Assembly: GCA_028714695.1 (NCBI GenBank)
Contig: JAQTLX010000001.1
Coordinates: 62,001 to 126,000, forward strand
Reading direction: 5' to 3'
Source of the DNA: Ignavibacteria bacterium
GTDB taxonomy: Bacteria > Bacteroidota > Ignavibacteria > Tepidaquicellales > Tepidaquicellaceae
Length of the DNA stretch: 64,000 bases
Below the pieces are notes generated by a model. The model did not search any database. It was not told the DNA's origin and was given only the letters and a program-made list of their open reading frames with translations. Within the stretch, counting starts at the first letter, position 1. Every line of letters starts with the position of its first letter. The translations under genes and the position numbers were made by a program. Below, piece by piece: positions 26,615 through 31,458 of this stretch.

Positions 26615-27046
26615 ATGTCACATTCAAACGTCAAAATTTGGATTCATCTTATTTTTAGTACTAAAGACAGAATACCGCTGATTAATGAATCCTTGCAAGA
26701 AAAATTATCTAACCATATCAGGCATAAACTGATAAATGATTTCAATTGTGTTGTTGAAGAAATAAACGGATATAAAGATCATTTACACATTCTATTTGGT
26801 TTATGCCAAAATTTCGCGTTGGAAAATATTGTCCAAAATATTAAAGGCGAATCGTCGCATTGGATTAATCAAAATAACCTGTCGAATCATAAATTTGTCT
26901 GGCAGACGGGTTATTGTGCCTTCTCTATAAGTGTAGACAAAGTGGATAAGGTAAAAAATTATATAGCCAACCAAAAGACACACCATACAAAACTTACATT
27001 CAAAGAGGAGTACAGCCGGTTTCTGAAAATATATGGCATATCCTGA
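26615..27046 (+). CDS. tnpA: IS200-like/REP-associated Y1 HUH transposase
   Basis: 143 residues, full length for TnpA of the IS200/IS605 superfamily. The HUH metal motif is H56-L57-H58 (KDHLHILFG), and the catalytic tyrosine is Y116 in VKNYIANQ with Q120. The N-terminal HLIFSTKDR strand is typical. It cuts and joins single-stranded DNA at hairpin-marked ends. Appears intact and potentially active. No tnpB accessory gene is present. The flanking hairpins are its likely substrates. Confidence 0.9.
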   Translation: MSHSNVKIWIHLIFSTKDRIPLINESLQEKLSNHIRHKLINDFNCVVEEINGYKDHLHILFGLCQNFALENIVQNIKGESSHWINQNNLSNHKFVWQTGYCAFSISVDKVDKVKNYIANQKTHHTKLTFKEEYSRFLKIYGIS

Positions 27047-28297: not shown

Positions 28298-28528
28298 ATG
28301 GAAGAAAAGTTAATAAATTTTATCAAGGGAGAATATCTCGATGACGATGATATCGTGATTACAAAAGATACGAAATTAATCTCAAGCGGACTTATTGATT
28401 CTTTCTCGCTTGTGTCTCTTCAGACTTATATTGAAAGAGAATTCGGAAAAAGAATCCCTGCTCCGAAAATTACTGCGGAATCTTTTGATACGGTCGGTCA
28501 GATGATTGAAATCATCAATCAGTTCTGA
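28298..28528 (+). CDS. Acyl carrier protein of a surface-acylation cluster
   Basis: 76 residues. The four-helix ACP pattern carries GLIDSFSLV with the phosphopantetheine attachment Ser at position 35; the DSF variant of DSL is also seen in DltC-like carriers. It is acidic overall, as ACPs are. The MBOAT gene begins 4 bp after its stop, so the two are co-transcribed. By context it would present an activated acyl or aminoacyl group as a thioester to the MBOAT on the cytoplasmic face. No AMP-ligase gene that would load it lies within the window. Confidence 0.85.
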   Translation: MEEKLINFIKGEYLDDDDIVITKDTKLISSGLIDSFSLVSLQTYIEREFGKRIPAPKITAESFDTVGQMIEIINQF

Positions 28529-28532
28529 TTGA

Positions 28533-29684
28533 ATGAGGCTGGGATTCCTGTTCATATCGTTCCTCGCGGGCTCGCTTATAATTTACTGGACTCTGCCTAA
28601 CCAGAAATCAAGAACTGTCTTCCTCGGTCTGGCAAGTTTGATTTTTATTCTTCTGGCTGATAAACTCGCGGGACGAATTGTGGTAGTCCTTACTATCTAT
28701 ACTTACTTTTTCTCCGTTCTGATAGAACATTCGAAATTCAAATCGCTCTATCATAAAATATCCGTTGCCGGAATCGTATTGCTGCTCGCGTTTTTCAAGT
28801 ATATGGGATTTCTGGATAAATACATCCATTCCGTTACGCATTTTTTTATGCAGAACCCCGCGCATCCGTTCGAGAAAATTCTAGTTCCGCTCGGTCTCTC
28901 GTATATAACTTTCAGATACATCAGTTATCTGACCGATATTTACTGGGGCATAAATAAGAAAACCGATATTTATACACTTCTCTTTTACGGCGGACTTTTT
29001 ACAACATTTCTTTCGGGACCTATCGACAGATATGAACGGCTTGAAAAACAAATCAATGTCTTCCGTATCTATTTCAAAAAAGACTTTGTCTATGAAGGAT
29101 TTGAAAGAATCACAATCGGTCTGTTCAAAAAATTCGTAATAGCAGACTGGATAGGTTACATCATAAACAATATCAACTCCGACCCCGGCGGTCATTCGCT
29201 CGGAGTGAGAGCGGTAGTCCTGTTCGGTTTTTCAATTCAACTCTATATGGATTTCGCGGGTTACAGCGATATTGCAATCGGCGCTTCGCGTTTGTTCGGT
29301 CTGAAGATAATGGAAAATTTCAACAGCCCTTATACTAAACCCAACATCTCGCAGTTCTGGAGAAGTTGGCATATATCGCTCTCCGACTGGATTCGCGATT
29401 ATTTGTTTTTCCCGCTTAGCAAATACAGCGAAAATAAAATATGGCTGCTAATTATTGTCCCCATTATTTCAATGGGACTGTGCGGCATGTGGCACGGCTC
29501 GGAAATGAAATTCGCGGTGTGGGGGATGTACCACGGCGCGGGACTTTCGTTCTTTCAGTTTTGGAGCATCTGGAAAAGAAAAAATAAATCCCTGAAAAAA
29601 TTTACCGAAACAAAATCGTTTAACTTTTTCTCAATAATCATTACTTTCGTTTTCGTAACTATCGGATGGCTGTTCTTCAGATGA
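28533..29684 (+). CDS. MBOAT-family O-acyltransferase (DltB/AlgI-like)
   Basis: 383 residues with roughly ten membrane segments. The family core is clear: SQFWRSWHISLSDWIRDYLF (about 268-287), then WHG with His321 and MYHG with His334, the conserved active-site histidines. It is shorter than AlgI (about 470 residues), stopping at TIGWLFFR, where AlgI-type proteins usually run on; the missing tail is where some relatives carry a fused acyl-shuttle motif. Its stop overlaps the next start as ATGA, so translation is coupled. It should move the acyl group from the ACP across the inner membrane to an extracytoplasmic acceptor. Confidence 0.9.
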   Translation: MRLGFLFISFLAGSLIIYWTLPNQKSRTVFLGLASLIFILLADKLAGRIVVVLTIYTYFFSVLIEHSKFKSLYHKISVAGIVLLLAFFKYMGFLDKYIHSVTHFFMQNPAHPFEKILVPLGLSYITFRYISYLTDIYWGINKKTDIYTLLFYGGLFTTFLSGPIDRYERLEKQINVFRIYFKKDFVYEGFERITIGLFKKFVIADWIGYIINNINSDPGGHSLGVRAVVLFGFSIQLYMDFAGYSDIAIGASRLFGLKIMENFNSPYTKPNISQFWRSWHISLSDWIRDYLFFPLSKYSENKIWLLIIVPIISMGLCGMWHGSEMKFAVWGMYHGAGLSFFQFWSIWKRKNKSLKKFTETKSFNFFSIIITFVFVTIGWLFFR

Positions 29685-30661
29685 AAAAAATAATTATCAT
29701 ATTGCTCGGTCTTGTATTCGCGTTCATCGTATCGGAAATTATTGTATATAAAATTGTCGGTTATCCCAAAAGAACCGATTCGGTTAAATATGTTTTCCTT
29801 CCCGATTTTAAAGGATTCGAGAATCTCAAATTCAAAGAACCCTATTCGAAATTCTGGACTGTCGAAGGCGGAAATAAGGTTTACTCATATAACAATCTCC
29901 GAATCACGGGAAGAGATGTTTATCCCGATGATAAATCCACTTTGATATTCGTGCTCGGCGATTCATACGTCGAGGCGGCGTCAGTACCTGCTGACTCTAC
30001 AGGCGTTACGATTTTTCAGAATGAACTCAATACGATTGATACGAATTTAAAAGCAATCAACATCGGATATCCGAACAGCGACCCGTATACTCTCTGGTTC
30101 AGGACAATGTTCTTCGAAAAAACATACAAAGCCGATTATGTGATATTGCTTCTGACTCATCTTGACCTGCTTGACCAGAATATGCAGAGACATCCGGACA
30201 CATTGAATTTTGCCGTGCCCGAAAATTTCGGCGAAGTAATTCCACAATCGAAATCCGATAAGTTTTTTGATATATTCAGAAAAAAGTCTGCGGTGTTCAA
30301 TCTGCTTTCAACAAGTATGAGTGTAGCGGGTTCGAAGAAAGATGTAAGTGACGGCATAAGCGATGAATATGTCAAAGACCTGAACAGGAGCATGAAAAAA
30401 CTCCGTGACTGCCTGCTCCGTTATCAAGAGAAATTCGGAGATAAGTTCATTGTTGTATCGCTCGAAGTGAACGATGAAAAAAGCAAAGTGATGTCAGACG
30501 TATGCGATTCGATGAAAATAAATTATGCTGACAGAAAACTTCTTATCCCTGAAAACCAATGGGGGAAAGGCTCTCATTTAAACTATAAAGGCAACAGAGA
30601 ATTCGGGAAATTCCTGTTTGAAATATTTATGCGGTATTATAAAAAAGATAAACTGAAATGA
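29681..30661 (+). CDS. Membrane-anchored SGNH-type acyltransferase (DltD/AlgX-like role)
   Basis: The open frame begins at 29666, but the ATG at 29681 overlaps the MBOAT stop (ATGA) and gives the normal signal-anchor start MKKIIIILLG, so I use it: 326 residues. One N-terminal helix (about 3-26) is followed by an extracytoplasmic domain. Nucleophile motif is LGDSYVEA with Ser95; the third SGNH block resembles LLLTHLDLLDQN; the C-terminal GSHLNYKGN (His about 299) supplies the histidine. This fits SGNH transferases that receive an acyl group from an MBOAT system and put it on a polymer. The acceptor is unknown. Confidence 0.75.
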   Translation: MKKIIIILLGLVFAFIVSEIIVYKIVGYPKRTDSVKYVFLPDFKGFENLKFKEPYSKFWTVEGGNKVYSYNNLRITGRDVYPDDKSTLIFVLGDSYVEAASVPADSTGVTIFQNELNTIDTNLKAINIGYPNSDPYTLWFRTMFFEKTYKADYVILLLTHLDLLDQNMQRHPDTLNFAVPENFGEVIPQSKSDKFFDIFRKKSAVFNLLSTSMSVAGSKKDVSDGISDEYVKDLNRSMKKLRDCLLRYQEKFGDKFIVVSLEVNDEKSKVMSDVCDSMKINYADRKLLIPENQWGKGSHLNYKGNREFGKFLFEIFMRYYKKDKLK

Positions 30662-30699
30662 AAAACAGAAATGAAAAACTGAAATGAAAAACTGACATG
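30648..30699. repeat. 13-bp tandem repeat spanning a stop/start junction
   Basis: Four units of AAAAACTGAAATG (first and last with small changes) at 30648, 30661, 30674 and 30687. Each ends in ATG followed by A. The first ATGA contains the stop of the SGNH gene (30659-30661); only the fourth ATG (30697) opens the microprotein frame. Confidence 0.85.
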
Positions 30700-30852
30700 A
30701 AAAATATTTTTGCATTCATAAAAAATAATAACCTGAGATTATTCGTAATCTCATTCGTACTTTTCCTTATTTTCATAATCTCATTATGCTCAATTGCCTT
30801 GTTGAATATAATCGAAATCGAATCCAACCCGTTCTATTATATGAATTTCTAA
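30697..30852 (+). CDS. DltX-like single-helix microprotein with C-terminal F-x-Y-x-x-F
   Basis: 51 residues, too short for ordinary gene finders. A basic N-terminus (MKNIFAFIKNNNLR) is followed by one strong membrane helix (about 15-39) and a short acidic outer tail ending PFYYMNF, predicting the C-terminus outside the inner membrane. The last six residues, FYYMNF, fit F-x-Y-x-x-F, the type of terminal hexapeptide found on DltX, in which the Tyr carries the acyl group between MBOAT and the SGNH transferase. It lies 35 bp after the SGNH gene on the same strand. Gene reality is inferred from position, topology and the terminal motif. Confidence 0.7.
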   Translation: MKNIFAFIKNNNLRLFVISFVLFLIFIISLCSIALLNIIEIESNPFYYMNF

Positions 30853-31097: not shown

Positions 31098-31201
31098 TCC
31101 CGCGGGCTATAAATTCTTGTTCTTAAATTAGTATAAATTAGTGGGAATTAGCGGCTATATTCTCTTCCGGTAAGTTAGTGAAATTCCTGATAATTAGTGG
31201 C
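31098..31201. repeat. 104-bp direct repeat, copy 1
   Basis: Starts TCCCGCGGGCTATAAATTCT and matches 31281-31384 with a few substitutions (offset 183 bp). Composed of sub-repeats of the AATTAGTGG/AATTAGCGG type. Confidence 0.85.
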
Positions 31202-31280
31202 TATATTTTTATTAATTAGGTTCGTGAAATCCGTGTAAATCCGTGGCTGAATTTCTTTCTGATATCCTTTTTTCTTTTTT

Positions 31281-31384
31281 TCCCGCGGGCTATAAATTCT
31301 TGCTCTTAAATTAGTATCAATTAGTGAAAATTAGCGGCTATATTCTCTTCCAGTAAGTTAGTGAAATTCGTGATAATTAGTGGC
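31281..31384. repeat. 104-bp direct repeat, copy 2
   Basis: Second copy of 31098-31201; the related sequence TTCGTGAAATCCGTGTAAAT lies between the copies, and another relative (AATTCGTGATAATCTGTGGC) at 39311-39330. Confidence 0.85.
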
Positions 31385-31458
31385 AGAATGTACTTGTTCT
31401 TAATTTTCTCTGTTTTTGTTTGCTTTTACTTCTTATTTTGTATGAAAATTATTAAACC

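Follow-up and report, generated by a model that had tools for sequence, protein, structure and literature searches.

PatA of Campylobacter jejuni acetylates itself at the Tyr within the C-terminal hexapeptide, and PatB can use acetyl-FIYANF as its acetyl donor (PMC12148441). Outside the Dlt pathway, systems pairing a membrane-bound O-acyltransferase (MBOAT) with an SGNH protein have been said to possess neither a carrier protein nor a microprotein (PMC12148441). In a different setting, the AasR-AcpR-SPT module of Caulobacter combines a ligase specific for an acyl carrier protein (ACP), a dedicated ACP and a pyridoxal phosphate (PLP)-dependent oxoamine synthase in sphingolipid synthesis (PMC9386255). 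We here analyse a four-gene cluster at positions 28298-30852 of a 64,000-nucleotide stretch of contig JAQTLX010000001.1 from an Ignavibacteria bacterium (hereafter the window), which is a counterexample to the above rule in that it encodes both a carrier and a DltX-like microprotein. A Dlt-like relay from ACP to MBOAT, to the Tyr of the microprotein (X) and on to the Ser of the SGNH protein is strongly supported. The fuller reading that we favor, with a probability of about 0.6, is that this relay is fed by acetyl-ACP and O-acetylates a surface or periplasmic glycan, the carrier (ACP1) being charged by a module made up of an ACP and a Kbl-type enzyme, Kbl2, and not by DltA.

The four genes lie on the plus strand in the order and with the spacings described in a preceding sequence-only reading, and every active-site residue and terminal motif named there is present. 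ACP1 (28298-28528, 76 amino acids (aa), PF00550), the predicted cytoplasmic acyl donor for the MBOAT, has its phosphopantetheine site at Ser35 within a DSF motif. After 4 bp follows a split-type MBOAT (28533-29684, 383 aa, PF03062) with His321, catalytic by alignment to DltB, and a second His at position 334. Through an ATGA overlap this gene runs into that of a membrane-anchored SGNH-fold protein, a predicted acyltransferase (29681-30661, ATG at 29681, 326 aa), with Ser95 in LGDS and His299 in SHLN. Lastly, 35 bp further on, comes X (30697-30852, 51 aa), with one transmembrane helix and the C-terminus ESNPFYYMNF, which holds the predicted acceptor Tyr. Pfam recognized ACP1 (PP-binding, 25.6 bits, above the cut-off) and the MBOAT (3.1e-18) and gave no match for the SGNH protein or X; promoter and terminator scans gave no signal above chance.

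X has a positively charged N-terminus, a single hydrophobic helix and a terminal hexapeptide, FYYMNF, that matches the FxYxxF acyl-shuttle motif. Of the 379 open reading frames (ORFs) in the window that encode 30-80 aa, X alone has such an ending, against one chance occurrence among 2384 background ORFs, and its presence at the end of X is beyond chance. The sequence-only reading had named the company of microprotein and MBOAT in related genomes as one test of its case, and the outcome is strongly positive: X was found in all 15 split-MBOAT loci of Ignavibacteria and Cloacimonadota that have intact flanks. Not counted are four further loci that break off at the end of a contig or at a run of N. 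In addition, two Cloacimonadota MBOATs carry the motif fused to their own C-terminus (G490, 473 aa, ending ESSPFRYAGF; G489, 455 aa, ending FIYAGF). These fused forms, present in the clade only at loci L257 and L260, nest separately inside the split clade of the MBOAT tree, for which the simplest reading is that fusion of motif and MBOAT arose at least twice. Since X accompanies the MBOAT in every assessable locus and the motif is fused to it at two separate places in the tree, X works with the MBOAT, and these natural fusions tie the two together. The window's MBOAT stops at GWLFFR, whereas relatives of at least 469 aa run on without such a stop. This agrees with the earlier proposal of a short MBOAT whose motif is supplied separately, and there is good evidence, from sequence comparison, that X would provide the missing C-terminal end.

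Alignment places His321 of the MBOAT at His336 of the solved DltB (E 1e-28), and both His321 and His334 are invariant among nine relatives, to which overall identity is about 50%. The protein nevertheless scores below the cut-off of the DltB model TIGR04091 (198 versus 375 bits). In the tree, the 18 MBOATs from Ignavibacteria and Cloacimonadota form a single clade (bootstrap 98, SH-like approximate likelihood ratio test (SH-aLRT) 98). It stands separate from the DltBs of clostridia and from AlgI-like/PatA-type proteins with a fused motif; short MBOATs of Proteobacteria, Planctomycetota, Actinomycetota and others make up a third group, likewise separate. The claim that this is Dlt chemistry in an FCB-group Gram-negative bacterium thus stands as regards the relay with its separate microprotein; it does not stand in that phylogeny and the curated cut-off both place the MBOAT outside DltB, and in that the ACP is not obligatory, as discussed below. 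In a sample of 395 genomes of the window's phylum, nearly all ORFs among the matches listed (full-length, E <=1e-60) are of at least 469 aa, the window's genome and G238 excepted, and the split clade is therefore rare. Three short MBOATs are encoded in the window's genome, and every one of them has a separate SGNH protein and a separate FxYxxF microprotein to go with it; the microprotein gene is located 3' of the SGNH gene in two systems and between MBOAT and SGNH genes in one.

Beside many short MBOATs of the third group we also found an FxYxxF microprotein together with an adenylating (AMP) ligase. A short MBOAT, a separate microprotein and a nearby AMP ligase occur at L060, L063, L065, L068, L071, L072, L075, L077, L082, L085 and L089, which represent Dlt-like operons of Proteobacteria, Planctomycetota, Hydrogenedentota and Actinomycetota. 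An initial idea that such microproteins are confined to Dlt systems and the split clade was dropped, as loci with microprotein, MBOAT and ligase exist in many Gram-negatives. A second subtype of split system (L032:1629-6508, L037:1543-6464, L038, L041) has its microprotein, ending FIYGDF, between MBOAT and SGNH genes; these loci continue with short-chain dehydrogenase/reductase (SDR), ATP-grasp-like and Asn-synthase-like genes, possibly for modification of the cargo or polymer.

Ser95 and His299 are invariant among 13 relatives of the SGNH protein, which Pfam and PDB sequence profiles assigned to no named family. An AlphaFold2 model is of modest confidence (mean pLDDT 63.6), yet across residues 85-320 it resembles SGNH/GDSL enzymes (best Foldseek E 3.7e-4; VIA Z about 14-15), which supports the SGNH assignment. 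Structural matches of the model to DltD are weak (E 0.013-0.018), and the absence of DltD among the 50 matches listed in a second structural comparison carries no weight against it. The last step, in which the acyl group reaches a polymer of the periplasm or cell surface, would presumably be catalysed by the SGNH protein.

What the cluster lacks is an adenylating ligase, as had been remarked from the sequence. None is present in any of 24 locus stretches of the clade, and a PF00501 search of the window's genome, following the earlier suggestion to look beyond the locus, detected no DltA-type or nonribosomal peptide synthetase-type ligase; so for DltA the absence extends genome-wide. Only three PF00501 genes were found, two passing acetate-CoA ligase cut-offs and one FadD-like, of which one adjoins, away from the cluster, the gene of a sister carrier, ACP2.

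The carrier itself is well conserved: ACP1 shares 67-93% identity with eight relatives from equivalent clusters, Ser35 is invariant, and the gene lies directly 5' of the MBOAT gene in most clusters of two phyla. The DltC model gives it 27.5 bits where 68 are needed. An ACP1 profile search revealed the ACP2 family (83-84 aa), which a Pfam PP-binding search did not detect, and the best NCBIfam matches of both carriers include an ornithine-lipid ACP. Both the window's genome (L166:5268-10116, on contig C19) and many relatives, among them Cloacimonadota (L261-L268 and L270), encode ACP2 in an operon that runs acetate ligase, ACP2, Kbl2; the ligase of this operon scores above the acetate-CoA ligase cut-off. 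The Caulobacter AasR-AcpR-SPT system provides a precedent for such a module of ligase, ACP and oxoamine synthase. Several Cloacimonadota operons have, upstream, a gene for AcpS and one for a threonine 3-dehydrogenase of the SDR type (E 2.4e-125 to solved enzymes), and the ACP2 operon looks like a threonine/glycine pathway operating on a private carrier, also in genomes without MBOAT matches. Kbl2 is a PLP enzyme of the glycine C-acetyltransferase type, with 554-579 bits against cut-offs of 493 (TIGR01822) and 460 (PRK06939), and is far under those for serine palmitoyltransferase.

In five Cloacimonadota loci (L050, L051, L255, L256, L257) Kbl2 is encoded directly upstream of ACP1, and four of these also hold MBOAT and SGNH genes. 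L050 and L255 are complete clusters of the order X-Kbl2-ACP1-MBOAT-SGNH, and L257 has Kbl2-ACP1 with a fused MBOAT. In a Kbl tree, in which rows L158 and L161 were disregarded as duplicate Kbl2s from loci holding both Kbl genes, the ACP1-linked enzymes group together as a clade (SH-aLRT 95), with the ACP2-linked ones as their sister group. The association also holds across genomes. Among 125 Cloacimonadota, 31 have both this ACP family and Kbl2 (for one of them, G061, Kbl2 is represented by a fragment at the edge of a contig), two only the ACP, one only Kbl2, and 91 neither; the Fisher p of 8e-26 overstates the case, related genomes not being independent. Among 22 Ignavibacteria, Kbl2 is present in all 13 with the ACP family and in none of the nine without. 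At E 1e-60, no relative of the acetate ligase of the ACP2 operon was found in the Cloacimonadota genomes G059, G060 and G061, two of which have Kbl2 adjoining ACP1; in those two Kbl2 is therefore the sole local candidate for loading the carrier. A literature search returned no report of an MBOAT and an SGNH protein with an ACP, nor of a Kbl-ACP operon. At another locus (L259:3-197, Cloacimonadota G497), a second small ACP-like gene is located 3' of the SGNH gene.

For Kbl enzymes, cleavage of 2-amino-3-ketobutyrate to glycine and an acetyl thioester is established with CoA as the thiol; going by the genomic linkage, Kbl2 would seem to accept holo-ACP instead. Under the scheme that we propose, the threonine dehydrogenase would make 2-amino-3-ketobutyrate from threonine and Kbl2 would cleave it, with the acetyl group left on holo-ACP; the acetate ligase serving ACP2 could charge ACP1 too, in addition to or in place of Kbl2. 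Holo-ACP1 would then carry a small acyl group. The sequence-only reading had left the cargo blank, and acetyl now seems most likely in view of the carrier's link to a Kbl-type enzyme and, via ACP2, to threonine dehydrogenase and an AMP ligase of the acetate type. At the cytoplasmic face, the MBOAT, by means of His321, would take up this group and pass it to the Tyr of FYYMNF of X, which may take up the position of the final helix that fused MBOATs have and the split form lacks. The membrane-anchored SGNH protein would next receive the acyl group on Ser95 and hand it on to a polymer hydroxyl, the acyl-Tyr and acyl-Ser intermediates being postulated by homology with DltX and PatA. Genes nearby for SDR, ATP-grasp, Asn-synthase-like and polysaccharide deacetylase proteins hint at an exported glycan as acceptor. 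In its most specific part, the scheme would have the dedicated carrier receive its acetyl from a PLP enzyme of threonine/glycine metabolism rather than from an ATP-dependent ligase, and the breakdown of amino acids would thereby supply envelope modification with neither CoA nor DltA involved. This part is put forward tentatively, the odds being somewhat against it.

Several observations weigh against this scheme. In the genome of the window, it is ACP2 and not ACP1 that has Kbl2 and the acetate ligase as neighbours, and their use for ACP1 would therefore be in trans, proposed by analogy. One genome, G490, gave no Kbl2 match although it encodes ACP1 and a fused MBOAT. Conversely, G029 contains the acetate ligase-ACP2-Kbl2 operon and gave no MBOAT match, so that the module must have another role too; for the same reason Kbl2 was rejected as an MBOAT-specific gene. 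Two split systems (G238 and SB14/G062), which are the first branches within the split clade, occur in genomes that have neither this ACP family nor Kbl2, from which it follows that the relay itself does not require the carrier. Solved structures liken ACP1 equally to prolyl/peptidyl carrier proteins and to acetyl carriers, which makes an aminoacyl cargo possible. Furthermore, the SGNH family has no evident DxxH aspartate among the 13 relatives, and Kbl2, if working in the condensing direction, would unload the ACP rather than charge it.

One could thus suppose a true Dlt-type aminoacyl system, in which an unlinked ligase charges the ACP with D-Ala, Gly or another amino acid, which ends up in ester linkage to a surface polymer. 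The four-part anatomy is the same as that of dltX-B-C-D, the nearest solved carriers to ACP1 are the type II peptidyl carrier proteins PigG and PltL (DltC being a weak match), and clostridial and other Gram-negative relatives of equal anatomy do have AMP ligases. Nevertheless, we regard this as unlikely, given that the three AMP-binding genes of the genome are of acetate (two) and FadD-like (one) types, that the 24 clade stretches hold no ligase, that the conserved partner of the carrier is Kbl2 and that the MBOAT falls outside the clostridial DltB clade. Less probable again is that the cluster encodes an ordinary acetyl-CoA-fed MBOAT-SGNH O-acetyltransferase with the ACP as a bystander serving another pathway. 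Since the ACP gene adjoins that of the MBOAT, CoA is the less likely donor: ACP1 keeps its place directly 5' of the MBOAT in most clusters of two phyla, and its conservation (67-93%) exceeds that of the MBOAT (about 50%), even though the relay persists in the two genomes without this ACP family, the window genome's two other split systems have no adjacent ACP and acetyl-CoA is the donor for PatA (PMC12148441).

It could also be that the acyl group on ACP1 is longer or of an unusual kind, derived from a diverged Kbl2 or from fatty-acid synthesis and attached to a surface polymer or lipid, as might be expected from the ornithine-lipid ACP among the best NCBIfam matches of ACP1 and ACP2 and from the fatty acyl chains used by known ligase-ACP-oxoamine synthase modules (PMC9386255). 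This we consider the least probable, and very much so, because Kbl2 lies above the glycine C-acetyltransferase cut-offs and far below the serine palmitoyltransferase ones, the partner ligase passes the acetate cut-off and several operons include threonine dehydrogenase. The acetyl-ACP-fed relay remains our preferred reading. Kbl2 with its ACP offers a concrete candidate for the donor that would replace the missing ligase, and, if the Kbl2 step is true, amino-acid metabolism would be joined to envelope acylation via a private acetyl carrier. A small and easily missed gene family is also brought to attention in environmental phyla.

As to the surroundings of the cluster, the region directly downstream (31098-31406) contains imperfect direct repeats, in which a 104-bp unit recurs at 94% identity with a spacing of 183 bp. 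Between the cluster and a sugar nucleotidyltransferase gene, an ORF (26615-27046) resembles, by eye, an IS200/IS605-type transposase.

Compared with known systems, the cluster shares with Dlt a carrier donor, an MBOAT with an aligned catalytic His, a separate one-helix FxYxxF microprotein and an SGNH partner, as well as the gene order MBOAT-SGNH-microprotein, which is also that of the clostridial loci L090 and L094. It differs in the absence of DltA, in an MBOAT that belongs to another clade and scores under the DltB cut-off, in its Gram-negative host, in the Kbl-type partner of its carrier and in a cargo that is probably not D-Ala. Having neither DltA nor an MBOAT of the DltB clade, the cluster is a Dlt-like variant and not Dlt. 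With PatA/PatB and AlgI-type systems it has in common the relay from MBOAT His to FxYxxF Tyr to SGNH Ser, a probable acetyl cargo and a likely glycan acceptor, although those systems have a fused motif and acetyl-CoA as donor where this one has a microprotein and a carrier protein. The acetate ligase-ACP2-Kbl2 operon in turn resembles the Caulobacter AasR-AcpR-SPT module in that genes for a specialised ligase, a specialised ACP and a PLP oxoamine synthase stand together, but the latter involves a fatty acyl group, a serine palmitoyltransferase and no MBOAT (PMC9386255), in contrast to the Kbl-type and acetate-type enzymes found here. We file the cluster as a variant of the MBOAT-SGNH acyl relay that is fed by a carrier, works through a microprotein and has a link to a Kbl-type enzyme.

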